DNA of 64,000 bases from the NCBI GenBank assembly GCA_008704415.1, contig VXIS01000022.1, forward strand, positions 1-64,000. Direction: 5' to 3'. The position numbers and the translations under genes were made by a program. This stretch comes from Sphaerosporella brunnea (Eukaryota > Ascomycota > Pezizomycetes > Pezizales > Pyronemataceae). Shown in pieces: positions 1-29,294 of the stretch. Position 1 is the first letter of the stretch, and each line of letters opens with the position of its first letter. Below the pieces are notes generated by a model. That model worked only from the letters and a program-made list of their open reading frames with translations, searched no databases and was not told where the DNA came from.

Positions 1-765
1 CTTGCTCTGTGCGCGTGGCGGCCCCTTGCTCCAAAATGTCAGTGGCGGGCTTCATGCGATAGACTGCTTGGCGCAGGATCTGGGTGCCGGGGTTACCATC
101 CGCGCTGGCTTCATTGACGGCGGCAAGGATTTCCTGCCGGATTATTGCCCGCACCTCTTGGGGAGTTACCGCAACAGGTGCTCGTGGGGGCGGCACCGGG
201 ATGGGGGCGGCTACGCTCTGGTTGGCGACATCCAAGATGTCGGCGAGTCCGTTATCGTCATGCGCGTCGTGAATATCAGCCAGATCGTCGTCCTCATTGT
301 CCAGTGCCGCAGCCTCATCGGGGGCCCTGCGCATGGCTTCGGGCAACACGAACGCGACGTTTTCGTCCAGAGGCGCAGGAGCATGGGCGACGGGCCAAGA
401 GGTCAGCCACTTCGCCTTCGACTGAAGCGCCGCCTTCAACAGCTTGTTAATGAACGCGTACAGCGCCATGAAGCCGTCGTTCAGCATGTACAGGCCAGGA
501 TAATGCTCGTACACGCGGGTTTCGTTCCTGTGTCGGTGTCAGCTGGCTGCTGTCTTCAGGCGGGAGGGGTCTTACGCGAGCGCACGCAACATGATTTGCG
601 CGGTGCATTGTCCGCCAGCGTCGGCTTGAAGTAACTGTCCATCTCGTGCCAGCCATTTTGCCGCATCGCCTTCACCAGGAGCTTGTGCAGAGGATATTGA
701 TCCATCTGCGCGACACCGGCGTCCTGGTACACGCCGGTGAGCGTTAATCTGTGCGACGGCGCCAT
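1..765 (-). CDS. Unknown acidic/Pro-rich protein, left copy, partial and frameshifted
   Basis: Left copy of the gene at 28422-29294. Exon 1 runs 765 to 576, the intron is 528-575, and exon 2 runs from 527 off the window edge. Exon 1 has a one-base deletion near 597 (TTT where the right arm has TTTT), which throws the frame out before the splice site. The intron ends (GTAAG...ACAG) are intact. Because the right copy is open, the break is more likely a homopolymer sequencing error than real decay. Function is not recognised. Confidence 0.6.
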
Positions 766-969
766 AGGATTGAGAATGATGGAGATTGTGTTGGGCGGTA
801 GAGGCGGGGAAGAGAAGATGAAGGGGAAAGAAGACAGAAGCGCGGTGATTGAAGTAGGGACGGTTGGTGGTAGAACTTGTTGTCAGAAGGGCTAAGTGTC
901 TACACGATGTACTAAATATTAAACCCCAATCTCGCCTCGCCTTCGATCACTCTACTTGAAACCCTAAAG

Positions 970-1320
970 TCCCTGACCACTTGATGGTGTCGGTAGATAG
1001 TGGATGATAAGATAAGATGAGAGATATGCCTGAAGCGGTAAGGTCGCGCGCCCGCCGCTACGACAGCGACAAATCCACGGCAGCGACAGGTTTACACAGC
1101 GAAAAAAAACAGACATCAAATGGAATACGGCCTCCGTCTCTACCGTTCAGTGGTCGCGGCCGGGGCCGAGGCTGCAGACTTTCGTTTCTTTGTTTCGGGG
1201 CTCCTACTCTGCCCCAGGGGCGGCCGCTCACGGTCATCACTTGACATATGAATCTCACCGCTTCAGGCATATCTCTCATCTTATCTTATCATCCACTGTC
1301 TACCATCAACTGGTCAGGGA
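970..1320. mobile_element. MITE with about 70-bp terminal inverted repeats, left copy
   Basis: The two ends are long inverted repeats. TCCCTGACCACTTGATGG opens at 970, and its near-perfect complement closes at 1320. The TIRs share the GATAAGATAAGATGAGAG core and extend inward to the CGCTTCA/TGAAGCG block. The 200 bp interior is GC-rich and carries a run of eight A residues. No transposase is encoded. Similarity may extend a few bases beyond each end (AAAG/AAAT), so the exact boundary and target duplication are uncertain. Superfamily is not assigned. Confidence 0.75.
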
Positions 1321-1555
1321 ATTTCCGTTTCCCTACCCAGGCCTTTGCTTCTTGCTTGCCGGCATCCTCACGGCTTACCGATTCAAGGTGATCGTTATCT
1401 TGGCCTCCTTGCTCTACCGGCGGAAGCCCAGCGCGCGCCACCAGCTATCAAGATGCCCGCTTCATGAGAAACCAACCACGCTGCCACCGAGACCATCAAT
1501 GACACTATTGCGCGATGGGTGAAGATCGCACCGAGATGTCTTCGACTGCGTGGTC

Positions 1556-1885
1556 TCAAACCGCCTGAGCAGGTGTCGGAACCCGTTTTTTTCTGGACCT
1601 CGTTACTTTCGTTGTGCTCCCTTGCAGTGCACCTTCGGGTAGAAGGCAAGACCGCTGCTTGCTGTTCCGAGATCCGCGTTGCGCGACAAGGTCCTTATGC
1701 CCCTCTTGGGGATGTTCCGGCTTCTGAATCGGTTCGACGTATGCTGCAGTCTGCGCTGTCTGCGAGGAGACACTGAGTCCGATCGGGTCGGCTCTGTTTA
1801 CCCGGGCTTTGAATAAGCTCGCAGGTCCGCAAATTCGTTCGCTTGCCTCCCTGCTAGTGGTAGCGAAACACATGCGTTCTATCAT
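1556..1885 (-). CDS. Unrecognised basic ORF, left copy
   Basis: Open frame of 109 codons with a basic, Arg/Lys-rich C-terminus and no recognised domain. The identical frame is open in the right arm (27301-27630). Conservation between the arms says nothing about coding, because the whole arm is duplicated. No introns or leader support it. Confidence 0.2.
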   Translation of the reverse strand: MIERMCFATTSREASERICGPASLFKARVNRADPIGLSVSSQTAQTAAYVEPIQKPEHPQEGHKDLVAQRGSRNSKQRSCLLPEGALQGSTTKVTRSRKKRVPTPAQAV

Positions 1886-2081
1886 TGCATGTTCTAGGTT
1901 ACATCATCTCGATCGGAGGGAATATGTTCCCTCTCTATTGCCACTGCACAGCAGAATTTATTATGTCCCGCAGACTACTTGCCCTAATTTCCACCTCCGG
2001 AGCAATATATTCCATCGAAACCGGCATGCAACGTGAACGCAATAGGGCCGGCACCACGCTCTGCCGCTTTTAAAAAACGCC

Positions 2082-2303
2082 TCAATCCTGCGAACGCACC
2101 AACCGCGCGAGACTAGTTGTGACCAGGGTTTTCACAGCCGCAGTGACCGCTTCGTACCAGCCAACCCAGCGATCCCGTTCAAACTCACAAAGCGTGGCTT
2201 GACGGGGCATAGGATGGCCGTGCTCGTCAAGACCTAGGGGTGCATACACTGGTAGATGCGCGGTAGCTGCGGAGTGATATCCAGTGAAGGCATCACGGGG
2301 CAT
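2082..2303 (-). CDS. Small unrecognised ORF, left copy
   Basis: A 73-codon frame, Trp- and Tyr-containing in its middle (the WVGWYEAV motif), identical to the right-arm frame at 26884-27105. It may be one exon of a longer gene; I could not connect it to neighbours with convincing splice sites. Confidence 0.25.
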   Translation of the reverse strand: MPRDAFTGYHSAATAHLPVYAPLGLDEHGHPMPRQATLCEFERDRWVGWYEAVTAAVKTLVTTSLARLVRSQD

Positions 2304-2394
2304 TTCTTGACGTTAGGTCTGGCCACCCACCCGGCTTGTTGGCTGTTAAGCACGCTGACCAGCCATCGCCCGGACACTTCACCACCACGGCACG

Positions 2395-3760
2395 TTGCTG
2401 AGGCCGTCTCAATGGTATCCGCTTGCCGAGACTGCTATTTTAAAACACGAAACCGACCGTGTCACGATCTGCAGCCCTCGACTCGATGACAAGCAATTCG
2501 CGGCGATACTGCGCGGCATCCATCGAACATTGATGCTGGAGACCTGCCACCGAGATCCTCTCCGGCTGTCCTCCGTATCAAAGTATCAGCAGGCGTTCAT
2601 GAGGTCGTTCATTCGATCACCCGACGAGAAGCAACATCCGGGATGTGAGCGAAAGGGCCACCGGCTCGCACATGACGAACATGCATCTCTCATTGCCTCT
2701 GGCTGCGCATTTGACTGTCGGGGCTGGGATAGACGCGATGTGGCTGCAAGACGCCGTAATTTTCGCTTCACCGTATCGCTTGGATGCAGCAACGGTCGAG
2801 ATTCCCCAGGAAGTACCGCCGAGTGGTTTGTCGCCTCCACCCGCGGAGACTGAAGGTCAGCAGGCAGCCGATGAGCCTGCAAACGCGTCGAACGACCGAT
2901 TCTCTGACGAAGCGACTGTGGGTGTTGGGAAAGACACCTGCAACTCGGCCTCCGACCGCGCGATGCCTGCTGCGCCGGTCGACACGACGGCTCTTGAGGT
3001 GCTGCGCGACACAGAGACCGCCAAGGACGCGCATGACGAGCTGGGACTGGAACACGCGCAGTCAGTACCAATATCCGGGTCATCGACTGGTGCCTGCCGC
3101 AACCTCGGTGCATGGCCATGCACGGACATGCCACTTGGGACAACTTGTCTGGCCATCTCAGCATCGGTCGGCTGCTGGACCTATGCCAGACCAGCCATGC
3201 ACCGAAGCTGCTCAGCAACGGAACAGCAGGACACCATGACGCGTGCAGCGCGGAAGACACTGTGTCGAGGCAACAGTGAAAGGGCGTGAATCTGTGCTCC
3301 ACAAGACGTTGACAGCCATGTGTGCGCAGACTACGTGCGGGGTTGCATCCAACCAGCTGCTTCAACGGAAGTTTGCCACGCAAAGCCTCCAAAAGCAACG
3401 GCACCAGCAACGCGTGCGGCACATGATGGTTCGGGGTCGGGCGAGCTGGGGCTGGTTTGTAACGGCGGGTATGGAGTGGCGATCGTCGCTGCAATGTCTC
3501 AGGAGCCCGCACCTCACGCTCGCTGGAGTATCGCTGTTTGTTGCCAATTCGCGCAGGATGCCAGTGCAGCTTGTCTTGTCAGATCGTCAGTCAGTCCAGC
3601 GTGGCTGTGCTCAATTTCTTCGTCCCAATACCATAATCCTGGTTGCTTGCAAGACGTGAAGGCGCAGATTATGATCCCACACAGATGGAGAGTGACTTCC
3701 ATAGTCTGGGTGACTCGTGGACGTAGAGATCCAAGGGCCACGTTGTCGCAGCAAGATTGA
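2395..3760 (+). CDS. Unrecognised gene in pieces, left copy
   Basis: Three consecutive open stretches lie on the plus strand. The first (about 2395-2650) is in one frame. The second (about 2610-3289) and the third (3320-3760) share another frame. The switch near 2640 falls at a GGG run and could be a frameshift or an unseen intron. The gap after 3286 has a GT...AG pair but would be an unusually short intron. The middle part is Ala/Asp/Glu-rich, the last part Cys- and Ser-rich. No domain or start codon is certain. Low-complexity composition means part of this may be non-coding. Confidence 0.3.
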
Positions 3761-4166
3761 TATGGCGAGATGTAGTTGCGACGGTCAACGTGCGCCCCTC
3801 CCTATTATATCGCCATTTATGTTACCCTTCGAACTGGTCGGTATGTGGCTGCTCCAGAAAAATCAGTAACGGGTAAGCGCGTGATTTCCCAGGGACTTTA
3901 GGAGGTGATCTTATAACTCTTGGCCCAGGCTTTGTAAAGATGAAACTATATTTTGCTCTTGCCGTCGATGTCAGCTGGGCCCAGGCGTGGTTTGGTCAAC
4001 GTGGAGGCTTCTGACGACCGTGCGGCACGACATGGCACCCCGGTTTTGCGACGGGAACAAAACTGAACAGCATATCTCACAACGCGCCATACCAGGCCGT
4101 GGGGAAAATAACAGGTGCCGTTGAGTTTCCGGTTCCCTTCCGATCCGTCGGACAAGCCTTCAAGAT
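3761..4166. other. Arm segment without supported gene, left
   Basis: Mirrored at about 25022-25426. Nothing recognised. Confidence 0.5.
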
Positions 4167-4512
4167 CCAGTTATCTTATGCCCACAACTCACGCTTTCGG
4201 GGAGCTAAGATCGCGCTCCCGTATCGGCAGGCGATCCTCCAAGCCCCCGTTGTTTTAAGCCCAGAACTCAGGCTTCGGGTGAGCTAGGATCGCTTCTCTT
4301 CCGATCCACAGACGATCCGTCAAGTTCCAATCGTCTTGAGCCCACAACTCAGGCTTTCGGTGAGCTACGATCGCTTCTTTTCGGTCCGCAAGCGATCGTC
4401 ACAGCTCCAGTTGTCTTACGCCCACAGCTCAGGCTGTCGGTGAGCTAAGATCGCAGGCAATCCTCCAAGCTCCAGCTGTGTTAACTCCCACAACCTCAGG
4501 GTTCCGCGGCCC
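4167..4512. repeat. Minisatellite, about 80-bp unit x5, left copy
   Basis: Units start near 4167, 4246, 4327, 4407 and 4472. Each contains a CCCACAACTCAGGCT-type block followed by a GGTGAGCTA-GATCGC block and a second GATCG. The units are diverged but clearly tandem. The array lies just beyond the 3' end of the gene at 4794-5617. Confidence 0.85.
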
Positions 4513-4793
4513 AAACTGGTCGCAAGCAGCGCGTTTTCCGACCTTGTCGCGACTTCCGTCGTCGCATCTCTTCCTGGGGTTGTCTGTTCTTATCGAAGTC
4601 GTAGCGCCGGGCTCATAACCTTTTGACCATAGGATTTGAGCAATGGACACTAAGAACTTATGTAGAAGAGATATATTGAAGGTACAGAGCTAATCAAATT
4701 ACGCAATCTCTAGCTGCATCCCTTTAATGCCCAATCAGACCATTCCTCCCCAGATATGCAGCATCACTCAGCCACTGTTTGCTCGCCCGAAAG

Positions 4794-5617
4794 TCACAAG
4801 TGCGAATCACTGATCTGCAGGCTTCCCAGGGTCGGGTTGTCAGGACCAGATACCTCAATCCAGTTGCCGTCGTCGGTGCGCACGACCACGTCATGTTCCG
4901 CAATCCTTATCTGGTGCGTCCAATCGTCATCGTCGATGCCCAGAGCCTCGAAAAAGCGCCTCCCGATAGACAATCTAACCTGCGAGATGTTCCTCGCGGA
5001 AGCATCAGTAGGTCTTGCATCGGTACACATATGTCGGGACGCTGGATCCACAGCGTCTGCACCGCGATAAATGTGGAGACTGCGAGCTCACCGGACATCT
5101 GGAGCTGGCCAATGTATGCGACCGCGATGCTGACGAGATCGCTGACAGTGAGGTTGTGCGGCCGGGGAACCGCAAGCTTGATTGTCAGGCGCTTGTCCTT
5201 GAACTGCATGGTGTACAAGGAATCCGAGAACAGCGATGCGCCAAGCACGGTGAACTTGTCCGTGTAGTATGGCCACGAGCTCCTGACTACCGGCCAGTGG
5301 GTTTCATCGATGCGATTGCCACGTGAATCCAGGACGGACTGCCGGTCGATATCCAGCTGTCCTTCTACAACGTGTTTCAGCTCCTTGATGCGCGGAGAGG
5401 CAACCCAAACGGCAGCTTGCCGGCACCAATATCCGCCACCGGATTTGTGTTGGAAAAGGATTTCGGGTGGCGACCGTGGGTCTAGATTTCTTGTTCCGTT
5501 TTCCGTGGTTGATATTTGTCCTTTTTCCTGTTGTTTTGCCCACGCGGCGCTGTATATAAAGGCCCGACGCTCGCCCTGCGGCGTCGGGAGAGAACTAAGC
5601 TTTATCTCCTCTCTCAA
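4794..5617 (-). CDS. Unknown protein, left copy, one frameshift near 5003
   Basis: The frame is open from 5617 to about 5003, where one base is missing (GGAAGCATC against GGAAGCCATC in the right arm). It resumes in the next frame to the stop at 4794. The protein would be about 274 residues. The C-terminal half looks like a real soluble domain, with a FFEALGIDDDDW motif and an ISDSHL end. The N-terminal 55 residues may be untranslated leader, so the true start is uncertain. No family is recognised. Confidence 0.5.
5553..5562 (+). promoter_or_regulatory. TATA box, left copy
   Basis: TATATAAAGG lies in a GC-rich context and is followed by a CT-rich stretch with two CTC runs (5600-5630). It faces rightward, away from the gene at 4794-5617, so it may drive the transcript covering 5640-6556. 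Confidence 0.45.
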
Positions 5618-5639
5618 CCTCGTCGTCGTTCAACAATTT

Positions 5640-5972
5640 GTGCGTAACCTGGTATGTCTGGATTTGGTCTTGCGGGATGATATAAATCCTGGGGGATCCT
5701 GGGACGACGAACTTCAACGGCAGTGCGCGTTACGTTTCACGCTCCGGGATGAGCGCGTCCATCGCGCTGCGGCGATGCAAAGTACCACTCATTGCGGAGC
5801 GGTGGAGTGGAACGCGGATACCGGTACTTTTGGGCGCACTGTGGAAACGACGATGGCGCTGGATGGGTGGTTGTGTTGGACGACAGCTGTGTCAATGAGT
5901 GGTCGCTACACTGACAAACATGTACGAGGCTGCGAGCATTCTGATCTCCCTATGACGACCGGTAAGAGGTAG
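5640..5972 (+). CDS. Unrecognised ORF downstream of TATA box, left copy
   Basis: Open to the stop at 5972, rich in charged residues and Trp. A second frame is open over much of the same stretch, so the coding frame is uncertain. The mirrored frame runs 23550 to 23215. Its position just after a TATA box and CT-rich leader is the main support. Confidence 0.2.
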   Translation: MRNLVCLDLVLRDDINPGGSWDDELQRQCALRFTLRDERVHRAAAMQSTTHCGAVEWNADTGTFGRTVETTMALDGWLCWTTAVSMSGRYTDKHVRGCEHSDLPMTTGKR

Positions 5973-6097
5973 CGGTCGGCGGCAGCGGGCGTTCAATCGC
6001 ACGGACTCGCACTCGACGCTTTCGAGTTGGGGGAATCTTATTTTCAGGGGATCGTTTGGTGCGACGGTTAGGCACCTAAAATATAACAGCCCTCACC

Positions 6098-6556
6098 TTG
6101 GAACAGCTCACCTTCGACCCCTTTGCACAGACACCAACTGCGCCTCCCCGCCCTCAAACTGGTATATCCCACACCAAACTCGTATCCTACACCACAGCAG
6201 GAGGAGCCAACAGCGATGGGCAGTGCGAGCGAGCAAAGAACCCTACATCTACAACGAGGTGGCGCCATCAATCCGGGCTCGGAAGAGCAGGCGCCTGTCT
6301 CATCGATGGTGAATCTCGCCGCTATGGCGGTTTTCTCGGCGGCGATCGTGGGGCGCAACATGAGGAAAATGATGAGGACGAGGAACAGGAACAGGAACTG
6401 GAGCAGGTGGAGGAAAGTGGACGGGAACGAGGAAATGAGTATTTGGAGAATCTCCTCGCGGATCTCCTCGTACCACCAGATCCTGAGGGCTCAGCGGAAC
6501 CAGCCAAAAGACCAAGAACGTTAAAACCTCACCCCCCCGCCCCCCGTCCGTACTGA
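6098..6556 (+). CDS. Acidic-protein ORF, left copy
   Basis: A 152-codon frame with a Glu-rich central run (about residues 90-110, a likely coiled coil) and a Pro-rich end. Three different frames are open here. The left and right arms differ by one A in an A-run near 6236 (AAAG against AAAAG), which changes which N-terminus joins the acidic part. No family is recognised. It could be an N-terminal remnant of the helicase element that follows. Confidence 0.3.
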   Translation: MEQLTFDPFAQTPTAPPRPQTGISHTKLVSYTTAGGANSDGQCERAKNPTSTTRWRHQSGLGRAGACLIDGESRRYGGFLGGDRGAQHEENDEDEEQEQELEQVEESGRERGNEYLENLLADLLVPPDPEGSAEPAKRPRTLKPHPPAPRPY

Positions 6557-6886
6557 AGGCTTGGAGGATCGCACCTGTGTTTTGTTTTTGTTTAATCATA
6601 TTGTATTCGGCCACTTGCGGCCATGACATCTCCTACTACATGGAGCAAGGTTTCCGGCGCGAAAATTTACCCGGCTTCCCAGCGAGTGACGATCCGTGCT
6701 GTCGTGTGTGACGCATTTTGGAGCAGAGCCATGGAACGAGCGCCAGTGAGATGATCACGGAGCAGAGCCATGGAATGAAATCGAAGTCGGAGCAGTTGGG
6801 GCGAGCGATTGCGAGTGAGGTCTCTCGCCTTAGTACATCACTCTTCGATCTTTCCTTGCGGCATCATCGCGATGGATTGTGGCTAA

Positions 6887-7210
6887 TTTGGGGCGACAGC
6901 TGTTATATTATCGGGCGTTGGCCTCCCAAGGATCAAGATTGTCAGTACTGCTGACGGGGATATGTCGTTCAAGTTAATCCGGCTTCAATATTCTATGCGC
7001 TTGGCGTTCCCTATGACGATGAACAAGTCCCAAGGGCAGTCGCTGAAGTACGTTGGTGTCAATGTGCAGGAGGTGGTATTCAGGCACGGACAACTATATG
7101 TGGCGCTGTCCCGTGCAACAAGCCGTGATCTCGTGCAAAGGACGGCGGGGGGTCATAATCTCCACGATCTCAAAAAAAGCAATCGTGCAAAGGACAACGA
7201 GGGGTCATGA
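6887..7210 (+). pseudogene. Helitron/PIF1-type DNA helicase, C-terminal fragment, left copy
   Basis: The frame after the in-frame stop at 6884 reads through the final motifs of a PIF1-family helicase as found in Helitrons. These are a GLPRIKI segment, a basic/aromatic block before MRLAFPMTMNKSQGQ (helicase motif V region) and HGQLYVALSRATS (motif VI). Only about 85 residues of a protein normally over 1000 long remain. The N-terminal Rep and Walker A/B parts are absent. The tail after SRATS is replaced by a short direct repeat. This is a dead fragment of a rolling-circle transposon. Confidence 0.85.
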
Positions 7211-7216
7211 TCTCCG
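7130..7216. repeat. Short direct repeat after the helicase fragment, left copy
   Basis: Two imperfect copies of a block of about 36 bases with CGTGCAAAGGAC and GGGGTCAT-ATCTCC lie side by side at the helicase 3' end. The right-arm counterpart is about 21970-22056. Confidence 0.6.
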
Positions 7217-7269
7217 CGTAACCATATAAACGTCACAGATGACCACAGACCGTGTGGTCGCCACACAGG

Positions 7270-8010
7270 TGTTCACTCGTATGTAGAAGAAAAGGCTATG
7301 CTACCCCTTCGGCAGAGCCGACGACTGAGGCCCGCGGCTCTTCCAAGGAAAAGGACTAAGGGAATCGCACCAAATTGTAAAAGCGCACCAAGGGAAAAAA
7401 AAAGTCTTATAACAGGATGCCTCTATCAGGCCATGATCCGACTTTGGTCGTGTTTAGGAAGTCCATGACGGCCTCCGTGCACCTATCATCCGCGAGCAGA
7501 GCGGAGTTGGCCGTCGCCGTCGCTTCCGTCCTCCTCCCTTCGTAGGCTCCGAAACCATCCTCCAGAGGACCCGCTGCTCGTTCTTTCACCTCTTGCAAAA
7601 CTTGAAAAGGAGGTCCCGTGTCTGGACGGCACCGCTGCCGCACCACCAGCACTTGTCATCCGCTCATCGGCCTGTCTTCCGGAGGTATGGGCCTGTCGGG
7701 GCTTTGCCGGTGCGGAACTGATAGAAACGCGACGCCAGCGACTTGTTCGTTTTGGCCGCGGCGGGGTCGTGCTTCTTTCGTCGTCGGTAGTACGTTTTGG
7801 CGGCTCAGTGCTTGGCCAGCCATTCGTCTCTGTCCCAGGACCTTGCCTGAGTGCTCTGGTGGCTGATTGCGGCGAGCGACGTGGTTCTCAGGAGGTCGTC
7901 GGTCAGGGGCTTACTTCGGCCTTGTTCTGCTGCCTTGGCGTGCTTGTCTGCCAGCTCGTTGCCCGGAATGCCTTTGTGACCTGGCACAGATCGCACCTGT
8001 TGTACAGCAG
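7270..8010 (-). pseudogene. LINE (Tad1-like) RNase H / 3' end, left copy
   Basis: On the minus strand the translation shows the end of an RNase H domain (VPGHKGIPGNELADKHAK, containing the conserved His and Asp). It then shows the C-terminal region with the CWWCG zinc-knuckle start seen in fungal non-LTR retrotransposons. Three in-frame stops and the loss of the knuckle histidine show decay. The 3' tail of about 200 bases has T-rich runs. Reverse transcriptase and endonuclease are absent, as expected for 5' truncation. Confidence 0.8.
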
Positions 8011-8462
8011 CTATCCTCTCGGCGCAGCCTTACTTCACAGGGCAGTGCAGTCGGGTTGAAGAGATTGGGAGGATGCGGGGCACCCAGTAATGTTCTATCG
8101 TAATTTCCACTGCGAACGTAGCTGGACCGAATATCACCGAGGCGTATGCAAGACCTATGGCCCGGAAGCGTTGCGACCGGCTTCCTCAGCGTTCTCGCTC
8201 GCTCACCACTCCATTGATTATCGTCAACATCTGCACCAACGGAGCCCGCCGAACTGCTGGTTCCAGGCCGCCTGAACTGTATATATTTGCAAGAAAACAG
8301 CGATTATGAGGTAGCCAGAATGAACACGTATAGCAACCTCCACCCGACAAGACGAAACACGATGAGAGTCCATTAGAGGTCGATGCTCCAAATGAGACGG
8401 TAATTGCACAAACGATTCCATGGCGCACATCGACGAGAATCGACCAGGTGGTTTCCTGAACT
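8011..8462. other. Arm segment without supported gene, left
   Basis: Between the LINE relic and the microsatellite. Mirrored at about 20723-21174. A 61-codon plus-strand frame (8090-8275) is not recognised. Confidence 0.45.
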
Positions 8463-8505
8463 GCCGACGCCGACGGCGACGCCGACGCCGACGCCCGCTC
8501 CGCGG
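8463..8505. repeat. GCCGAC hexanucleotide microsatellite, left copy
   Basis: Imperfect tandem GCCGAC/GGCGAC units. Mirrored at 20691-20722. Confidence 0.8.
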
Positions 8506-8560
8506 TGGCTGCGAGCAGGGCTGTCAAAAGTGCGGCCAGTCCGGCTTTGAGCGCGGCCTG

Positions 8561-9366
8561 AACCGGACTGATTGAAACGGGGTTTTGAAATCACGGCCCG
8601 TTTGGACCAGGCTTGTTGCATCGAGACCCAGGCGCCTACGGGCACCCGCCAGGCCCAGAAGTACCCGGCGCCCGGCAGGCCCGCCAGGCATCTGTAGTTT
8701 TTTGCTTACACATACACCAAGGAAAGAAAAATAAACGCGAGATACAGATTCAACAACCTGAGGACCTCCAGATACCCCTCCATCTCCGCCCCCCGCTGTT
8801 TCAAGTCACTCAGCATATGCTCAACCTGATGAATTTGTGAACCCGCCGCATACATCATATGTTCCCTCGCCCAGAATTGGAGGCATTCTATGGCTTCTAC
8901 AACATCGTCCCGTAATCGTGTATTGACCCCTGGGAATTGTTGTTAGTGATGCTTCCATCGACACCTACCTCAAAGGACACTCTTACCCGATGAACACACG
9001 TTCTGCTCCAGCCGACATCGCTGGAATCGCATTGAGCTCAACTCACATGCGAGGCAGACCCCGTCCGAACATTGCATTGGAGCGTTGGTTCATCGCTTTA
9101 ACCCAGTAGTCTCGCATGTCAGCGAATCCTTCGACCGGGAGTTGCTGAAATCGCTCAAATGCATCGACTGGGGAGCTTCCCAACTGGGCGCGCTATTCTG
9201 CGTTCGGCCGACCCGACCTTAATTCAAGATACCGGGCACCGTCCCGCACCTATCAGATATCGAGGGTTTTATTATGGCGGCCCGAAGCTGTGAGGCTTGC
9301 CACATCACCGGCCCGACCTGACCCACTCGTTGGGCCCCGTTCGACCTGGCGGCCGGCCGGACTATT
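8561..9366 (-). mobile_element. Dispersed GC-rich element R1, left copy
   Basis: About 806 bp. Its two ends match the ends of the unique copy at 30531-31185: a GTCCGGC-GGCC...CCAGGTC block at one end, and a CCTGGTCCAAACGGGCC block followed by a CAGTCCGG at the other. The middles differ. It looks like a non-autonomous DNA element with conserved ends. No transposase or clean target duplication was identified, so the class is open. Confidence 0.6.
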
Positions 9367-9566
9367 GACCGCCCTGGCTGCGAGGACCTTGCGACGATCG
9401 TCATGTTCGATAGGCATGTACTGATGATGCCGGAGCGAATGCTCTTGGTTGTTGGGGTCCGAGGGTTCACCTTGCGCTTGGGCTTGCGGCGCGCTTTTCC
9501 TCTATAGGCATTTTTCGGATGTGCCTAATCAGGTTCTCTTTCACCGACTGTGAACGCAGTTTCATG
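9364..9566 (-). pseudogene. 5' end of a gene cut by R1, left copy
   Basis: Reads leftward from about 9566, mirror of 19619-19817. It has a CT-rich leader and an ATG, then about 30 codons, then a basic nuclear-localisation-like RRKPKRK motif in a shifted frame. It runs into the R1 element, so the rest is lost or displaced. Confidence 0.25.
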
Positions 9567-9721
9567 ATGTCAAGAGAAACGGAAGAAGGAAAAAAAGAAG
9601 AGAATCAAGAAGAGAAGCAGGGAGGTTGTTGATGGTATAGGTGGGGTTGCGTGTCGCCAAACTTCACGCAGTGGGTATTAAGAACGTGCGTAGATGTGTT
9701 CTTTACGAGGTACGGAGCCTT

Positions 9722-9758: not shown

Positions 9759-9773
9759 CAGCTATCTTACCTC

Positions 9774-19817: not shown

Positions 19818-20624
19818 AATAGTCCGGCCGGCCGCCAGGTCGAACGGGGCCCAACGAGTGGGTCAGGTCGGGCCGGTGATGTGGCAAGCCTCACAGCTTC
19901 GGGCCGCCATAATAAAACCCTCGATATCTGATAGGTGCGGGACGGTGCCCGGTATCTTGAATTAAGGTCGGGTCGGCCGAACGCAGAATAAGCGCGCCCA
20001 GTTGGGAAGCTCCCCAGTCGATGCATTTGAGCGATTTCAGCAACTCCCGGTCGAAGGATTCGCTGACATGCGAGACTACTGGGTTAAAGCGATGAACCAA
20101 CGCTCCAATGCAATGTTCGGACGGGGTCTGCCTCGCATGTGAGTTGAGCTCAATGCGATTCCAGCGATGTCGGCTGGAGCAGAACGTGTGTTCATCGGGT
20201 AAGAGTGTCCTTTGAGGTAGGTGTCGATGGAAGCATCACTAACAACAATTCCCAGGGGTCAATACACGATTACGGGACGATGTTGTAGAAGCCATAGAAT
20301 GCCTCCAATTCTGGGCGAGGGAACATATGATGTATGCGGCGGGTTCACAAATTCATCAGGTTGAGCATATGCTGAGTGACTTGAAACAGCGGGGGGCGGA
20401 GATGGAGGGGTATCTGGAGGTCCTCAGGTTGTTGAATCTGTATCTCGCGTTTATTTTTCTTTCCTTGGTGTATGTGTAAGCAAAAAACTACAGATGCCTG
20501 GCGGGCCTGCCGGGCGCCGGGTACTTCTGGGCCTGGCGGGTGCCCGTAGGCGCCTGGGTCTCGATGCAACAAGCCTGGTCCAAACGGGCCGTGATTTCAA
20601 AACCCCGTTTCAATCAGTCCGGTT
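19818..20624 (+). mobile_element. Dispersed GC-rich element R1, right copy
   Basis: Mirror of 8561-9366. It interrupts a short ORF that starts at 19619 behind a CT-rich leader. Confidence 0.6.
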
Positions 20625-20690
20625 CAGGCCGCGCTCAAAGCCGGACTGGCCGCACTTTTGACAGCCCTGCTCGCAGCCACCGCGGAGCGG

Positions 20691-20722
20691 GCGTCGGCGT
20701 CGGCGTCGCCGTCGGCGTCGGC
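20691..20722. repeat. GTCGGC hexanucleotide microsatellite, right copy
   Basis: Imperfect GCGTCG/GTCGGC tandem units, mirror of 8463-8505. Confidence 0.8.
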
Positions 20723-21174
20723 AGTTCAGGAAACCACCTGGTCGATTCTCGTCGATGTGCGCCATGGAATCGTTTGTGCAATTACCGTCTCATTTGGAGC
20801 ATCGACCTCTAATGGGACTCTCATCGTGTTTCGTCTTGTCGGGTGGAGGTTGCTATACGTGTTCATTCTGGCTACCTCATAATCGCTGTTTTCTTGCAAA
20901 TATATACAGTTCAGGCGGCCTGGAACCAGCAGTTCGGCGGGCTCCGTTGGTGCAGATGTTGACGATAATCAATGGAGTGGTGAGCGAGCGAGAACGCTGA
21001 GGAAGCCGGTCGCAACGCTTCCGGGCCATAGGTCTTGCATACGCCTCGGTGATATTCGGTCCAGCTACGTTCGCAGTGGAAATTACGATAGAACATTACT
21101 GGGTGCCCCGCATCCTCCCAATCTCTTCAACCCGACTGCACTGCCCTGTGAAGTAAGGCTGCGCCGAGAGGATA

Positions 21175-21905
21175 GCTGCTGTACAACAGGTGCGATCTGT
21201 GCCAGGTCACAAAGGCATTCCGGGCAACGAGCTGGCAGACAAGCACGCCAAGGCAGCAGAACAAGGCCGAAGTAAGCCCCTGACCGACGACCTCCTGAGA
21301 ACCACGTCGCTCGCCGCAATCAGCCACCAGAGCACTCAGGCAAGGTCCTGGGACAGAGACGAATGGCTGGCCAAGCACTGAGCCGCCAAAACGTACTACC
21401 GACGACGAAAGAAGCACGACCCCGCCGCGGCCAAAACGAACAAGTCGCTGGCGTCGCGTTTCTATCAGTTCCGCACCGGCAAAGCCCCGACAGGCCCATA
21501 CCTCCGGAAGACAGGCCGATGAGCGGATGACAAGTGCTGGTGGTGCGGCAGCGGTGCCGTCCAGACACGGGACCTCCTTTTCAAGTTTTGCAAGAGGTGA
21601 AAGAACGAGCAGCGGGTCCTCTGGAGGATGGTTTCGGAGCCTACGAAGGGAGGAGGACGGAAGCGACGGCGACGGCCAACTCCGCTCTGCTCGCGGATGA
21701 TAGGTGCACGGAGGCCGTCATGGACTTCCTAAACACGACCAAAGTCGGATCATGGCCTGATAGAGGCATCCTGTTATAAGACTTTTTTTTCCCTTGGTGC
21801 GCTTTTACAATTTGGTGCGATTCCCTTAGTCCTTTTCCTTGGAAGAGCCGCGGGCCTCAGTCGTCGGCTCTGCCGAAGGGGTAGCATAGCCTTTTCTTCT
21901 ACATA
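21175..21905 (+). pseudogene. LINE (Tad1-like) RNase H / 3' end, right copy
   Basis: Mirror of 7270-8010. It is transcribed toward the helicase fragment, so the two dead elements converge tail to tail. The same in-frame stops are present. Confidence 0.8.
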
Positions 21906-21974
21906 CGAGTGAACACCTGTGTGGCGACCACACGGTCTGTGGTCATCTGTGACGTTTATATGGTTACGCGGAGA

Positions 21975-22298
21975 TCATGACCCCTCGTTGTCCTTTGCAC
22001 GATTGCTTTTTTTGAGATCGTGGAGATTATGACCCCCCGCCGTCCTTTGCACGAGATCACGGCTTGTTGCACGGGACAGCGCCACATATAGTTGTCCGTG
22101 CCTGAATACCACCTCCTGCACATTGACACCAACGTACTTCAGCGACTGCCCTTGGGACTTGTTCATCGTCATAGGGAACGCCAAGCGCATAGAATATTGA
22201 AGCCGGATTAACTTGAACGACATATCCCCGTCAGCAGTACTGACAATCTTGATCCTTGGGAGGCCAACGCCCGATAATATAACAGCTGTCGCCCCAAA
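21975..22298 (-). pseudogene. Helitron/PIF1-type helicase fragment, right copy
   Basis: Mirror of 6887-7210, with the same KSQGQ and HGQLYVALSRATS motifs and the same truncation. Confidence 0.85.
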
Positions 22299-22628
22299 TT
22301 AGCCACAATCCATCGCGATGATGCCGCAAGGAAAGATCGAAGAGTGATGTACTAAGGCGAGAGACCTCACTCGCAATCGCTCGCCCCAACTGCTCCGACT
22401 TCGATTTCATTCCATGGCTCTGCTCCGTGATCATCTCACTGGCGCTCGTTCCATGGCTCTGCTCCAAAATGCGTCACACACGACAGCACGGATCGTCACT
22501 CGCTGGGAAGCCGGGTAAATTTTCGCGCCGGAAACCTTGCTCCATGTAGTAGGAGATGTCATGGCCGCAAGTGGCCGAATACAATATGATTAAACAAAAA
22601 CAAAACACAGGTGCGATCCTCCAAGCCT

Positions 22629-23063
22629 TCAGTACGGACGGGGGGCGGGGGGGTGAGGTTTTAACGTTCTTGGTCTTTTGGCTGGTTCCGCTGAGCCCTC
22701 AGGATCTGGTGGTACGAGGAGATCCGCGAGGAGATTCTCCAAATACTCATTTCCTCGTTCCCGTCCACTTTCCTCCACCTGCTCCAGTTCCTGTTCCTGT
22801 TCCTCGTCCTCATCATTTTCCTCATGTTGCGCCCCACGATCGCCGCCGAGAAAACCGCCATAGCGGCGAGATTCACCATCGATGAGACAGGCGCCTGCTC
22901 TTCCGAGCCCGGATTGATGGCGCCACCTCGTTGTAGATGTAGGGTTCTTTTGCTCGCTCGCACTGCCCATCGCTGTTGGCTCCTCCTGCTGTGGTGTAGG
23001 ATACGAGTTTGGTGTGGGATATACCAGTTTGAGGGCGGGGAGGCGCAGTTGGTGTCTGTGCAA
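22629..23063 (-). CDS. Acidic-protein ORF, right copy
   Basis: Same acidic, coiled-coil-like C-terminal part as 6098-6556, but joined to a different N-terminal frame because of the extra A near 22950. 144 codons. Confidence 0.3.
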   Translation of the reverse strand: MHRHQLRLPALKLVYPTPNSYPTPQQEEPTAMGSASEQKNPTSTTRWRHQSGLGRAGACLIDGESRRYGGFLGGDRGAQHEENDEDEEQEQELEQVEESGRERGNEYLENLLADLLVPPDPEGSAEPAKRPRTLKPHPPAPRPY

Positions 23064-23214
23064 AGGGGTCGAAGGTGAGCTGTTCCAAGGTGAGGGCTGT
23101 TTATATTTTAGGTGCCTAACCGTCGCACCAAACGATCCCCTGAAAATAAGATTCCCCCAACTCGAAAGCGTCGAGTGCGAGTCCGTGCGATTGAACGCCC
23201 GCTGCCGCCGACCG

Positions 23215-23550
23215 CTACCTCTTACCGGTCGTCATAGGGAGATCAGAATGCTCGCAGCCTCGTACATGTTTGTCAGTGTAGCGACCACTCATTGACACAG
23301 CTGTCGTCCAACACAACCACCCATCCAGCGCCATCGTCGTTTCCACAGTGCGCCCAAAAGTACCGGTATCCGCGTTCCACTCCACCGCTCCGCAATGAGT
23401 GGTACTTTGCATCGCCGCAGCGCGATGGACGCGCTCATCCCGGAGCGTGAAACGTAACGCGCACTGCCGTTGAAGTTCGTCGTCCCAGGATCCCCCAGGA
23501 TTTATATCATCCCGCAAGACCAAATCCAGACATACCAGGTACGCACAAAT
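23215..23550 (-). CDS. Unrecognised ORF downstream of TATA box, right copy
   Basis: Mirror of 5640-5972, with the same sequence and the same ambiguity of frame. Confidence 0.2.
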   Translation of the reverse strand: MCAYLVCLDLVLRDDINPGGSWDDELQRQCALRFTLRDERVHRAAAMQSTTHCGAVEWNADTGTFGRTVETTMALDGWLCWTTAVSMSGRYTDKHVRGCEHSDLPMTTGKR

Positions 23551-23568
23551 TGTTGAACGACGACGAGG

Positions 23569-24394
23569 TTGAGAGAGGAGATAAAGCTTAGTTCTCTCCC
23601 GACGCCGCAGGGCGAGCGTCGGGCCTTTATATACAGCGCCGCGTGGGCAAAACAACAGGAAAAAGGACAAATATCAACCACGGAAAACGGAACAAGAAAT
23701 CTAGACCCACGGTCGCCACCCGAAATCCTTTTCCAACACAAATCCCGGTGGCGGATATTGGTGCCGGCAAGCTGCCGTTTGGGTTGCCTCTCCGCGCATC
23801 AAGGAGCTGAAACACGTTGTAGAAGGACAGCTGGATATCGACCGGCAGTCCGTCCTGGATTCACGTGGCAATCGCATCGATGAAACCCACTGGCCGGTAG
23901 TCAGGAGCTCGTGGCCATACTACACGGACAAGTTCACCGTGCTTGGCGCATCGCTGTTCTCGGATTCCTTGTACACCATGCAGTTCAAGGACAAGCGCCT
24001 GACAATCAAGCTTGCGGTTCCCCGGCCGCACAACCTCACTGTCAGCGATCTCGTCAGCATCGCGGTCGCATACATTGGCCAGCTCCAGATGTCCGGTGAG
24101 CTCGCAGTCTCCACATTTATCGCGGTGCAGACGCTGTGGATCCAGCGTCCCGACATATGTGTACCGATGCAAGACCTACTGATGGCTTCCGCGAGGAACA
24201 TCTCGCAGGTTAGATTGTCTATCGGGAGGCGCTTTTTCGAGGCTCTGGGCATCGACGATGACGATTGGACGCACCAGATAAGGATTGCGGAACATGACGT
24301 GGTCGTGCGCACCGACGACGGCAACTGGATTGAGGTATCTGGTCCTGACAACCCGACCCTGGGAAGCCTGCAGATCAGTGATTCGCACTTGTGA
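23569..24394 (+). CDS. Unknown protein, right copy, one frameshift near 23745
   Basis: Same gene as 4794-5617. Here the 3' part is open to the stop at 24394, but an extra C near 23745 (CCCGG against CCGG) breaks the 5' part. The two copies are broken at different places, and each arm is intact where the other is not. The underlying gene is therefore probably intact and the differences are read errors. Minisatellite DNA follows about 280 bp downstream. Confidence 0.5.
23624..23633 (-). promoter_or_regulatory. TATA box, right copy
   Basis: Mirror of the TATATAAAGG site at 5553. It faces leftward toward the ORFs at 22629-23550. Confidence 0.45.
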
Positions 24395-24675
24395 CTTTCG
24401 GGCGAGCAAACAGTGGCTGAGTGATGCTGCATATCTGGGGAGGAATGGTCTGATTGGGCATTAAAGGGATGCAGCTAGAGATTGCGTAATTTGATTAGCT
24501 CTGTACCTTCAATATATCTCTTCTACATAAGTTCTTAGTGTCCATTGCTCAAATCCTATGGTCAAAAGGTTATGAGCCCGGCGCTACGACTTCGATAAGA
24601 ACAGACAACCCCAGGAAGAGATGCGACGACGGAAGTCGCGACAAGGTCGGAAAACGCGCTGCTTGCGACCAGTTT

Positions 24676-25021
24676 GGGCCGCGGAACCCTGAGGTTGTGG
24701 GAGTTAACACAGCTGGAGCTTGGAGGATTGCCTGCGATCTTAGCTCACCGACAGCCTGAGCTGTGGGCGTAAGACAACTGGAGCTGTGACGATCGCTTGC
24801 GGACCGAAAAGAAGCGATCGTAGCTCACCGAAAGCCTGAGTTGTGGGCTCAAGACGATTGGAACTTGACGGATCGTCTGTGGATCGGAAGAGAAGCGATC
24901 CTAGCTCACCCGAAGCCTGAGTTCTGGGCTTAAAACAACGGGGGCTTGGAGGATCGCCTGCCGATACGGGAGCGCGATCTTAGCTCCCCGAAAGCGTGAG
25001 TTGTGGGCATAAGATAACTGG
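24676..25021. repeat. Minisatellite, about 80-bp unit x5, right copy
   Basis: Mirror of 4167-4512 with the same five units. It carries repeated GATCG-containing half-sites at near-constant spacing. Confidence 0.85.
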
Positions 25022-25426
25022 ATCTTGAAGGCTTGTCCGACGGATCGGAAGGGAACCGGAAACTCAACGGCACCTGTTATTTTCCCCACGGCCTGGTATG
25101 GCGCGTTGTGAGATATGCTGTTCAGTTTTGTTCCCGTCGCAAACCGGGGTGCCATGTCGTGCCGCACGGTCGTCAGAAGCCTCCACGTTGACCAAACCAC
25201 GCCTGGGCCCAGCTGACATCGACGGCAAGAGCAAAATATAGTTTCATCTTTACAAAGCCTGGGCCAAGAGTTATAAGATCACCTCCTAAAGTCCCTGGGA
25301 AATCACGCGCTTACCCGTTACTGATTTTTCTGGAGCAGCCACATACCGACCAGTTCGAAGGGTAACATAAATGGCGATATAATAGGGAGGGGCGCACGTT
25401 GACCGTCGCAACTACATCTCGCCATA

Positions 25427-26792
25427 TCAATCTTGCTGCGACAACGTGGCCCTTGGATCTCTACGTCCACGAGTCACCCAGACTATGGAAGTCACTCTCC
25501 ATCTGTGTGGGATCATAATCTGCGCCTTCACGTCTTGCAAGCAACCAGGATTATGGTATTGGGACGAAGAAATTGAGCACAGCCACGCTGGACTGACTGA
25601 CGATCTGACAAGACAAGCTGCACTGGCATCCTGCGCGAATTGGCAACAAACAGCGATACTCCAGCGAGCGTGAGGTGCGGGCTCCTGAGACATTGCAGCG
25701 ACGATCGCCACTCCATACCCGCCGTTACAAACCAGCCCCAGCTCGCCCGACCCCGAACCATCATGTGCCGCACGCGTTGCTGGTGCCGTTGCTTTTGGAG
25801 GCTTTGCGTGGCAAACTTCCGTTGAAGCAGCTGGTTGGATGCAACCCCGCACGTAGTCTGCGCACACATGGCTGTCAACGTCTTGTGGAGCACAGATTCA
25901 CGCCCTTTCACTGTTGCCTCGACACAGTGTCTTCCGCGCTGCACGCGTCATGGTGTCCTGCTGTTCCGTTGCTGAGCAGCTTCGGTGCATGGCTGGTCTG
26001 GCATAGGTCCAGCAGCCGACCGATGCTGAGATGGCCAGACAAGTTGTCCCAAGTGGCATGTCCGTGCATGGCCATGCACCGAGGTTGCGGCAGGCACCAG
26101 TCGATGACCCGGATATTGGTACTGACTGCGCGTGTTCCAGTCCCAGCTCGTCATGCGCGTCCTTGGCGGTCTCTGTGTCGCGCAGCACCTCAAGAGCCGT
26201 CGTGTCGACCGGCGCAGCAGGCATCGCGCGGTCGGAGGCCGAGTTGCAGGTGTCTTTCCCAACACCCACAGTCGCTTCGTCAGAGAATCGGTCGTTCGAC
26301 GCGTTTGCAGGCTCATCGGCTGCCTGCTGACCTTCAGTCTCCGCGGGTGGAGGCGACAAACCACTCGGCGGTACTTCCTGGGGAATCTCGACCGTTGCTG
26401 CATCCAAGCGATACGGTGAAGCGAAAATTACGGCGTCTTGCAGCCACATCGCGTCTATCCCAGCCCCGACAGTCAAATGCGCAGCCAGAGGCAATGAGAG
26501 ATGCATGTTCGTCATGTGCGAGCCGGTGGCCCTTTCGCTCACATCCCGGATGTTGCTTCTCGTCGGGTGATCGAATGAACGACCTCATGAACGCCTGCTG
26601 ATACTTTGATACGGAGGACAGCCGGAGAGGATCTCGGTGGCAGGTCTCCAGCATCAATGTTCGATGGATGCCGCGCAGTATCGCCGCGAATTGCTTGTCA
26701 TCGAGTCGAGGGCTGCAGATCGTGACACGGTCGGTTTCGTGTTTTAAAATAGCAGTCTCGGCAAGCGGATACCATTGAGACGGCCTCAGCAA
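25427..26792 (-). CDS. Unrecognised gene in pieces, right copy
   Basis: Mirror of 2395-3760 with the same three open stretches and the same frame change, so the change is not a one-arm sequencing slip. Long frames are also open on the opposite strand here (25675-26601), which weakens the coding call. That is common in GC-rich DNA. Confidence 0.3.
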
Positions 26793-26883
26793 CGTGCCGT
26801 GGTGGTGAAGTGTCCGGGCGATGGCTGGTCAGCGTGCTTAACAGCCAACAAGCCGGGTGGGTGGCCAGACCTAACGTCAAGAA

Positions 26884-27105
26884 ATGCCCCGTGATGCCTT
26901 CACTGGATATCACTCCGCAGCTACCGCGCATCTACCAGTGTATGCACCCCTAGGTCTTGACGAGCACGGCCATCCTATGCCCCGTCAAGCCACGCTTTGT
27001 GAGTTTGAACGGGATCGCTGGGTTGGCTGGTACGAAGCGGTCACTGCGGCTGTGAAAACCCTGGTCACAACTAGTCTCGCGCGGTTGGTGCGTTCGCAGG
27101 ATTGA
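26884..27105 (+). CDS. Small unrecognised ORF, right copy
   Basis: ATG-initiated, 73 residues, with the motif WVGWYEAV near residues 46-53 and a hydrophobic tail. Divergently oriented to the larger ORF group at 25427-26792, with about 90 bp between them. No family is recognised. Confidence 0.25.
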   Translation: MPRDAFTGYHSAATAHLPVYAPLGLDEHGHPMPRQATLCEFERDRWVGWYEAVTAAVKTLVTTSLARLVRSQD

Positions 27106-27300
27106 GGCGTTTTTAAAAGCGGCAGAGCGTGGTGCCGGCCCTATTGCGTTCACGTTGCATGCCGGTTTCGATGGAATATATTGCTCCGGAGGTGGAAATT
27201 AGGGCAAGTAGTCTGCGGGACATAATAAATTCTGCTGTGCAGTGGCAATAGAGAGGGAACATATTCCCTCCGATCGAGATGATGTAACCTAGAACATGCA

Positions 27301-27630
27301 ATGATAGAACGCATGTGTTTCGCTACCACTAGCAGGGAGGCAAGCGAACGAATTTGCGGACCTGCGAGCTTATTCAAAGCCCGGGTAAACAGAGCCGACC
27401 CGATCGGACTCAGTGTCTCCTCGCAGACAGCGCAGACTGCAGCATACGTCGAACCGATTCAGAAGCCGGAACATCCCCAAGAGGGGCATAAGGACCTTGT
27501 CGCGCAACGCGGATCTCGGAACAGCAAGCAGCGGTCTTGCCTTCTACCCGAAGGTGCACTGCAAGGGAGCACAACGAAAGTAACGAGGTCCAGAAAAAAA
27601 CGGGTTCCGACACCTGCTCAGGCGGTTTGA
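27301..27630 (+). CDS. Unrecognised basic ORF, right copy
   Basis: Starts at an ATG and encodes 109 residues, ending in a cluster of Arg and Lys. No family is recognised. It lies between the small ORF at 26884 and the MITE at 27866. It could equally be a chance frame. Confidence 0.2.
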   Translation: MIERMCFATTSREASERICGPASLFKARVNRADPIGLSVSSQTAQTAAYVEPIQKPEHPQEGHKDLVAQRGSRNSKQRSCLLPEGALQGSTTKVTRSRKKRVPTPAQAV

Positions 27631-27865
27631 GACCACGCAGTCGAAGACATCTCGGTGCGATCTTCACCCATCGCGCAATAGTGTCATTGATGGTCTCGGT
27701 GGCAGCGTGGTTGGTTTCTCATGAAGCGGGCATCTTGATAGCTGGTGGCGCGCGCTGGGCTTCCGCCGGTAGAGCAAGGAGGCCAAGATAACGATCACCT
27801 TGAATCGGTAAGCCGTGAGGATGCCGGCAAGCAAGAAGCAAAGGCCTGGGTAGGGAAACGGAAAT

Positions 27866-28217
27866 TCCCTGACCAGTTGATGGTAGACAGTGGATGATAA
27901 GATAAGATGAGAGATATGCCTGAAGCGGTGAGATTCATATGTCAAGTGATGACCCGTGAGCGGCCGCCCCTGGGGCAGAGTAGGAGCCCCGAAACAAAGA
28001 AACGAAAGTCTGCAGCCTCGGCCCCGGCCGCGACCACTGAACGGTAGAGACGGAGGCCGTATTCCATTTGATGTCTGTTTTTTTTCGCTGTGTAAACCTG
28101 TCGCTGCCGTGGATTTGTCGCTGTCGTAGCGGCGGGCGCGCGACCTTACCGCTTCAGGCATATCTCTCATCTTATCTTATCATCCACTATCTACCGACAC
28201 CATCAAGTGGTCAGGGA
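27866..28217. mobile_element. MITE with long TIRs, right copy
   Basis: Mirror of the element at 970-1320, one base longer. It sits directly upstream of the outer gene's promoter, so in both arms the element separates that gene from the inner ORFs. Confidence 0.75.
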
Positions 28218-28254
28218 CTTTAGGGTTTCAAGTAGAGTGATCGAAGGCGAGGCG

Positions 28255-28421
28255 AGATTGGGGTTTAATATTTAGTACATCGTGTAGACACTTAGCCCTT
28301 CTGACAACAAGTTCTACCACCAACCGTCCCTACTTCAATCACCGCGCTTCTGTCTTCTTTCCCCTTCATCTTCTCTTCCCCGCCTCTACCGCCCAACACA
28401 ATCTCCATCATTCTCAATCCT
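28255..28421 (+). promoter_or_regulatory. Promoter/leader of the outer palindrome gene
   Basis: An AT-rich TTTAATATTTAG stretch at about 28262 is followed by roughly 100 bases dominated by C and T, ending at the ATG at 28422. This CT-rich leader is typical of expressed fungal genes. The mirrored copy lies at about 766-932 on the minus strand. The exact transcription start cannot be read from the sequence. Confidence 0.4.
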
Positions 28422-29294
28422 ATGGCGCCGTCGCACAGATTAACGCTCACCGGCGTGTACCAGGACGCCGGTGTCGCGCAGATGGATCAATATCCTCTGC
28501 ACAAGCTCCTGGTGAAGGCGATGCGGCAAAATGGCTGGCACGAGATGGACAGTTACTTCAAGCCGACGCTGGCGGACAATGCACCGCGCAAAATCATGTT
28601 GCGTGCGCTCGCGTAAGACCCCTCCCGCCTGAAGACAGCAGCCAGCTGACACCGACACAGGAACGAAACCCGCGTGTACGAGCATTATCCTGGCCTGTAC
28701 ATGCTGAACGACGGCTTCATGGCGCTGTACGCGTTCATTAACAAGCTGTTGAAGGCGGCGCTTCAGTCGAAGGCGAAGTGGCTGACCTCTTGGCCCGTCG
28801 CCCATGCTCCTGCGCCTCTGGACGAAAACGTCGCGTTCGTGTTGCCCGAAGCCATGCGCAGGGCCCCCGATGAGGCTGCGGCACTGGACAATGAGGACGA
28901 CGATCTGGCTGATATTCACGACGCGCATGACGATAACGGACTCGCCGACATCTTGGATGTCGCCAACCAGAGCGTAGCCGCCCCCATCCCGGTGCCGCCC
29001 CCACGAGCACCTGTTGCGGTAACTCCCCAAGAGGTGCGGGCAATAATCCGGCAGGAAATCCTTGCCGCCGTCAATGAAGCCAGCGCGGATGGTAACCCCG
29101 GCACCCAGATCCTGCGCCAAGCCGTCTATCGCATGAAGCCCGCCACTGACATTTTGGAGCAAGGGGCCGCCACGCGCACAGAGCAAGAGGCCGAGCGAAA
29201 ATTCGTGCAGGCTGCGGCGGGAATCACCGGCTTGCAAGGAGACGTGGACGACGGTGTACGAGCACCGGGGGAATGTGGAGAGAGAATGGATTAG
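28422..29294 (+). CDS. Two-exon gene of unknown function, intact right copy
   Basis: Exons are 28422-28612 and 28661-29294, giving about 274 residues. The 48 bp intron has GTAAGA, a CTGAC branch site and ACAG, as is usual in basidiomycetes. I chose the ATG at 28422 because it follows a long C/T-rich leader and opens the longest frame. Residues 1-110 look like a compact alpha-rich domain with many aromatic residues. Residues 134-163 are strongly acidic, 170-182 are proline-rich, and the C-terminal third is predicted helical with alternating charge. There is no signal peptide or membrane segment. I recognise no family. The last 107 bases lie outside the part of the palindrome visible on both sides. 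The tidy intron, leader and open frame suggest an expressed gene rather than a transposon fragment. Confidence 0.7.

Follow-up and report, generated by a model that had tools for sequence, protein, structure and literature searches.

A 29-kb palindrome at the start of a Sphaerosporella brunnea contig is very probably a fold-back misassembly

Introduction

Palindromic PacBio reads that result from a skipped hairpin adapter are known to disturb assembly. According to the BIGMAC paper (PMC5084376), assemblers "get stuck" on such reads, and a long palindrome in a contig is a strong sign of misassembly. In the synthetic test of that paper, other tools, FinisherSC included, returned the mis-assembled contigs unchanged. 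Here we analyzed a long palindrome at the start of a contig of the fungus Sphaerosporella brunnea (contig VXIS01000022.1 of assembly GCA_008704415.1, called C135 below; 278,416 bp). The analyzed stretch, called the window, is C135:1-64000, and base 1 of the window is base 1 of the contig. Labels such as C2 and C83 denote other contigs of the same assembly.

The palindromic contigs of the BIGMAC paper resemble C135, in which a long palindrome likewise stands in a long-read contig. Unlike the adapter-skip case described there (PMC5084376), the turn in C135 has 226 bp that are present singly, and no adapter remnant was found at it. The reads treated in the Pacasus paper are inverted and near-symmetrical and bring inverted duplications into assemblies, as here; in its unamplified PacBio control, 0.5% of the reads were palindromic, which was put down to false positives and missed adapters (PMC6218980). 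Unlike the amplified samples of that paper, the S. brunnea sample has no documented amplification. The fold-back reads described with Breakinator are likewise comparable, since their second half maps to the same place on the opposite strand and some of them have unmapped sequence between the halves (PMC12870357). As stated in that paper, these artefacts are systematic in Oxford Nanopore data and virtually absent from PacBio HiFi data, whereas the present data are earlier PacBio reads.

Human fold-back inverted duplications with a disomic spacer have the same layout as C135, namely an arm, a single-copy spacer and an inverted arm (PMC3907307). The cases described in that paper were verified with array-based copy-number analysis and sequenced junctions, and they end in a telomere or in another chromosome. 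The palindrome of C135 departs from the human cases in that it ends at the contig edge, shows one-sided raw-read errors and has a shorter spacer.

The published S. brunnea assembly was made from PacBio reads of a low-input 10-kb protocol with FALCON 0.3.0, finisherSC 2.1 and Arrow at 907.91x, and it comprises 872 contigs and 51.6 Mb (PMC6908789). The DNA came from cultured mycelium, and amplification goes unmentioned in that paper. The assembly analyzed here has 640 contigs and 50.57 Mb; compared with the published one, small contigs have presumably been omitted.

Results

Geometry of the palindrome

When the window was compared with itself by BLASTN, only one long inverted pair was found, in which 1-14471 pairs with 29187-14698. 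Its 14,607 alignment columns are 97.768% identical and include 73 mismatches and 229 gap openings. An inverted match of 14 kb is beyond chance. The spacer of 226 bp is present in a single copy between the inverted arms, and 226 bp also separate the closest pair of exactly matching 15-mers across the centre. These results bear out the palindrome and the coordinates that the first-pass annotation of this DNA had given. Its arm length of at least 14.47 kb was also correct, but the bound comes from the start of C135 and not from the window edge. The differences between the arms are very unevenly spread, with most of them in the innermost 3.5 kb of the right arm.

Elsewhere in the assembly, the arm also occurs once in unfolded form. 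Positions 1-12906 of contig C2 (340,893 bp) match window 14696-1770 at 99.5%, with spacer and arm present once only, and C2 then runs into other sequence. The start of C2 is thus one base inside the outer edge of the spacer. The features of the window are as follows.

1 to 14471, minus strand: left arm, an inverted copy of the right arm, which reaches base 1 of C135 (self-BLAST, contig start and three-way alignment)
14472 to 14697, plus strand: spacer of 226 bp, present once (base 1 of C2 corresponds to window 14696)
14697 to 14698, no strand: fold point, read as an artificial joint (C2 stops at the adjacent base, with nothing beyond)
14698 to 18200, plus strand: inner ~3.5 kb of the right arm, of raw-read quality (91.7% to C2; errors thin out toward ~19200)
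19234 to 27352, plus strand: outer part of the right arm, without difference from C2 (identity to C2 breaks off abruptly at 27352/27353)
27353 to 29187, plus strand: outermost arm stretch (82-84% to C2 where aligned; ~100% to the left arm)
29188 to 64000, plus strand: flank of contig C135 (no long inverted partner within the window by self-BLAST)

The right arm opens with the self-complementary motif CATG, and the native sequence past the spacer is missing from the assembly.

The differences between the arms lie on one side of the fold

To C2, the inner 3.5 kb of the right arm showed 91.7% identity by BLAST, with 183 gap openings and 73 mismatches. In contrast, the equivalent inner end of the left arm showed 99.3%, with 14 gap openings and no mismatches. 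When the right arm was aligned to C2 by dynamic programming, its first 4.5 kb showed 262 difference events, namely 213 indels (190 of one base and 16 of two bases) and 49 substitutions, and 254 of the 262 events sit in the first 3.5 kb. In a three-way MAFFT alignment of left arm, right arm and C2, the right arm alone deviated in 224 substitution and 161 indel columns over its first ~3.5 kb, in 9 columns from ~3.5 to 4.5 kb and in 1 column thereafter; the left arm alone deviated in 32 indel and 2 substitution columns over its full length.

Repeat copies in the genome were aligned with the same BLAST settings. At 91-99% identity they showed 253 mismatches and 18 gap openings over 25 matches, and at 85-99% identity 610 mismatches and 48 gap openings over 38 matches, in a sample of few distinct repeats, several of which were counted repeatedly via both contigs and both arms.

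Judged from its sequence, the inner end of the right arm is probably uncorrected read sequence that was patched in. In a true palindrome at ~908x, both arms would be expected to be corrected alike. We also considered repeat-induced point mutation (RIP) as a source of the differences. Of the 49 substitutions relative to C2, 21 are C>A, only 2 are G>A and none is C>T. Thus, RIP was ruled out. Loss of accuracy after true inverted duplicates, as described for nanopore sequencing (PMC7229812), was rejected as well, because the sequencing was by PacBio and reads in the opposite direction should mend the arm.

An old ordinary genomic inverted repeat with diverged arms is contradicted by the distribution of the differences. 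The genome does possess ordinary inverted repeats, such as that on C138 (91.7%, with 25 mismatches and 8 gap openings). In C135, however, one arm alone is affected, and only at one of its ends; over the roughly 11 kb past the first 3.5 kb, just 4 substitution and 30 indel columns distinguish the two arms. We therefore rejected this explanation, which we consider scarcely credible.

Contig C2 and the end of the spacer

C2 and the right arm are identical over window 19234-27352 (up to position 12842 of C2), and their identity then falls to 82-84% where the two are alignable. The match between the left arm and the outer stretch of C135, 27353-29187, continues at ~100% beyond the point at which identity to C2 breaks off. 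Thus, what the left arm repeats is C135 itself rather than C2. We interpret it as the trace of an assembly path that turned back on itself, and not as a second locus.

Since C2 runs on into other sequence, it may be a second locus. With probes from the C135 flank (34000-36000, 38000-40500 and 56500-59000), no match on C2 was listed; in one of these searches, 40 of 401 candidates were scored. This makes it unlikely that C2 and C135 are allelic copies. The stretch common to the two contigs is ~12.8 kb long, is without differences in its outer 8 kb and ends abruptly in the 82-84% paralogous part (C2 12843-15384 against window 27353-29436). It is either a very recent end-to-end copy made via a diverged homologous stretch or a second misjoin.

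The turn of C135 and the start of C2 fall within two bases of each other, and in both contigs the native sequence is lost at the outer edge of the spacer. If the chromosome ended in a closed hairpin and sequencing passed from one strand into the other, two contigs could stop or turn at such a place. However, read-through would give the terminal sequence twice, whereas the 226 bp that adjoin the turn occur in a single copy. Moreover, by eye, the turns of C83, C125 and C267 (described below) have no obvious common motif. The probability of a hairpin end is close to nil.

The spacer belongs to a dispersed repeat

The spacer is part of a dispersed repeat. Copies on C31, C39 and C224 match window 14423-14686, and a copy on C254 matches 14433-14684. 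Since these four copies (252-267 columns) cross the border between left arm and spacer at 14471/14472 unbroken, the left arm and the spacer are in native order. In all four, the piece that precedes 14423 is the window piece ending at 13911-13918, which suggests that 13917-14421 in the window copy is an inserted element. This dispersed element of ~505 bp lies inside the larger repeat and is the innermost repeat of the arm.

Mirrored ends of other contigs

Six other contigs with mirrored matches were examined (C125, C267, C83, C138, C165 and C23), taken from match lists that were not screened systematically. Near-identical mirrored arms were found in six of the seven contigs, C135 included, and all six palindromes reach a contig end. 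The exception is C138, which was rejected as a mirrored end; its centre has no self-match, and it carries the ordinary inverted repeat mentioned above. C83 was sampled at three places, and C165 and C23 at two places each, with the centres of the latter two lying outside the sample.

C125, 1-4272: 99.25%, with no mismatches and 32 gap positions
C267, 44559-51739, up to the last base of the contig: 99.72%
C83, 1-47626: 1-1427 equals inverted 46200-47626 at 100%, and 16800-17861 equals inverted 29800-30861 at 100%; the centre is near 23830, at 97.1%
C165, 38656-74840: 43402-44000 matches inverted 69504-70100 at 99.7% with no mismatches, and the last 151 bases (74690-74840) equal inverted 38656-38806 at 100%
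C23, 66109-122843: 66200-66798 matches inverted 122150-122750 at 99.7% with no mismatches, and the last 101 bases (122743-122843) match inverted 66109-66207 at 91.3%

The arm lengths are ~28.4 kb (C23), 23.8 kb (C83), 18.1 kb (C165), 14.5 kb (C135), 3.6 kb (C267) and 2.1 kb (C125), where the first three were deduced from the samples. In the sampled central arms of C83 (central 62 bp omitted), the innermost 250 bp hold 33 of the 37 difference events, and the closest exact 15-mer pair is 398 bp apart. The one-sidedness of the arm errors was established for C135, against C2; in the other contigs the side is not distinguishable.

C125 and C267 share a single piece. C125:1625-2144 matches C267 ~47627-48145 at 99.8% over 520 columns, nothing further is shared, and the two ends of the piece coincide, to within about 10 bp, with the folds of C125 and C267. 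The simplest reading is a single native stretch P-u-Q at which the two contigs were turned back, one on either side of u. This suggests that C125 and C267 are neighbours on the chromosome.

Discussion

Fold-back misassembly as the preferred reading

The palindrome reaches base 1 of its contig, raw-read errors stand on one side of the fold, and five further contigs have mirrored termini. On these grounds, and as far as the assembled sequence can tell, we consider it very probable that the palindrome is a fold-back misassembly of a known kind at the start of C135. The first-pass annotation had put forward a fold-back chromosome end, a breakage-fusion product or a linear replicon with inverted halves, and had named a fold-back read or assembly chimera as the main rival. 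The same evidence favours that rival and does not support its headline reading. Its assignment of the DNA to a fungal nuclear genome holds.

The true DNA would consist of flank, arm and spacer in a single orientation. Palindromic reads, one or a few in number and derived from adapter-skipped or fold-back molecules, would have reversed direction where the spacer ends on its outer side. The assembler would have traced such a read back on the complementary strand of the same locus for 14.5 kb more and then stopped, which would give the order arm', spacer, arm, flank. The palindromic reads may have supplied just the turn, after which the overlap graph would have run back along the complement. Such a continuation is proposed because the arms of C135, C83, C165 and C23 exceed the 10-kb library.

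FinisherSC fills gaps with raw reads, which leaves sequence of raw quality. Gap-filling of this kind may have been the source of the 3.5 kb that were left unpolished. The palindromic read itself could have come from a missed adapter, from strand snap-back or from an amplification chimera.

The loss of the 226 bp and amplification

A plain missed-adapter read should hold the spacer on both sides of the turn, and the absence of the 226 bp from one side is unexplained by it. In addition, no remnant of the SMRTbell adapter was found at the folds of C135, C83, C125 and C267, where the local scores of the adapter were 12-14 against shuffled maxima of 14-16. Strand snap-back or an amplification chimera would account for this; such molecules are typically inversions that lack an intervening piece.

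In a chimera of whole-genome amplification, displaced 3' ends are re-primed on the same molecule during strand-displacement synthesis, so that inverted molecules arise before sequencing. Most amplification chimeras are described as inversions in which the sequence between the two segments has been deleted (PMC1855051), and the absence of the 226 bp from one side agrees with this. In the Pacasus paper, palindromes were reported in 43.6-47.8% of amplified Arabidopsis PacBio reads, compared with 0.5% of unamplified ones (PMC6218980). However, the S. brunnea paper gives a low-input protocol with cultured mycelium and mentions no amplification (PMC6908789). This origin is considered unlikely; as a sub-form of the artefact, its share of the probability overlaps with that of fold-back misassembly.

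Points that weigh against misassembly

Several observations do not fit misassembly well. The arms of the four contigs named above are longer than the stated library, so one read cannot cover such a palindrome. The split between indels and substitutions in the inner 3.5 kb of the right arm shifts with the aligner, as the MAFFT counts of 224 and 161 columns show. Terminal palindromes are also no general trait of the sampled contig ends. A palindrome was found in none of 13 other contig ends (the starts of C20, C60, C100, C140, C180, C393 and C408, and the ends of C135, C2, C31, C39, C254 and C224) at a search depth of 5-6 kb, which deeper folds would escape; short local inverted matches of 49-124 columns occurred in C60, C31 and C39 only. 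Similarly, in 10 further contig starts queried with 110-base pieces, no inverted copy on the same contig was found among the matches listed.

C408 and C615 carry a spacer-like piece (14437-14666 or 14672) followed by the inverted 13917-14421 element. This order is the same as that of spacer and right arm in the window. Since the inverted 14423-14471 that opens the right arm of the window has no match in C408 and C615, we read them as separate insertions of the element. A short native inverted repeat around the spacer may nevertheless exist and could initiate folding, either in vitro or in the living cell. Finally, the arm-spacer-arm anatomy is that of real fold-back duplications (PMC3907307), and the coincidence of C2 and C135 within two bases might conceivably point to a natural end of the DNA.

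An improbable alternative: a genuine fold-back duplication

The last three points would all suit a chromosome end with a genuine fold-back inverted duplication. If the DNA broke past the spacer and the 3' end folded back and primed synthesis, a 226-bp single-copy spacer would be left, as in the known duplications (PMC3907307); the DNA would conceivably end natively where C2 stops, and a native short inverted repeat near the spacer, as C408 and C615 make possible, would assist the folding. However, one arm has raw-read errors beside the fold despite ~908x, and the inner ends match C2 at 91.7% and 99.3%. The contig ends within the left arm, with no unique flank beyond. Neither the window nor 80 kb from the start of C2 contained tandem TTAGGG/CCCTAA; thus, a telomere at the fold was rejected, and this also counts against a folded chromosome end. 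Five other contigs end alike, and two of them resemble the two sides of one 520-bp locus. The spacer is also shorter than those of the human cases described, which range from 766 to 70,466 bp (PMC3907307). From these results, we regard a real fold-back duplication as very improbable.

The same small probability is given to a wider form of this explanation, in which C135, C83, C165, C23, C267 and C125 are true folded-back ends or break sites, the C2/C135 end is a hot spot, and the errors reflect trouble in sequencing or polishing palindromes. The addition of C165 and C23 left this low estimate for a real structure unchanged.

With fold-back misassembly as the preferred reading, at least six contigs of this assembly appear doubled back at their ends. 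Such ends would duplicate gene models and repeats and would mimic fold-back chromosome ends, which calls for caution in genome scans. The check used here, namely where the differences lie relative to an unfolded copy and whether the palindrome reaches the contig end, can be applied to any assembly without the reads.

Other features of the window and the assembly

Of ten open reading frames (ORFs) searched against Pfam, nine gave nothing. The tenth, at 34016-36055 (679 aa), encodes a fungal kinase-like protein with the domains Pkinase_fungal and DUF6826, and contigs C190, C313 and C434 have stretches related to it. Besides this protein itself, a protein search at E <= 1e-10 listed two others, both from S. 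brunnea. Short minisatellite arrays with units of 80-170 bp were observed at 4133-4454, 24734-25055, 30076-30510 and 52322-52655; the first two are one array, seen in both arms.

Within the first few hundred bases of contigs C217, C602, C555, C496, C485, C253 and C27, one repeat is present at 99% identity. It is found at at least seven contig starts and, among the matches listed, also inside many more contigs. It may be a repeat of recent origin that interrupts the assembly.

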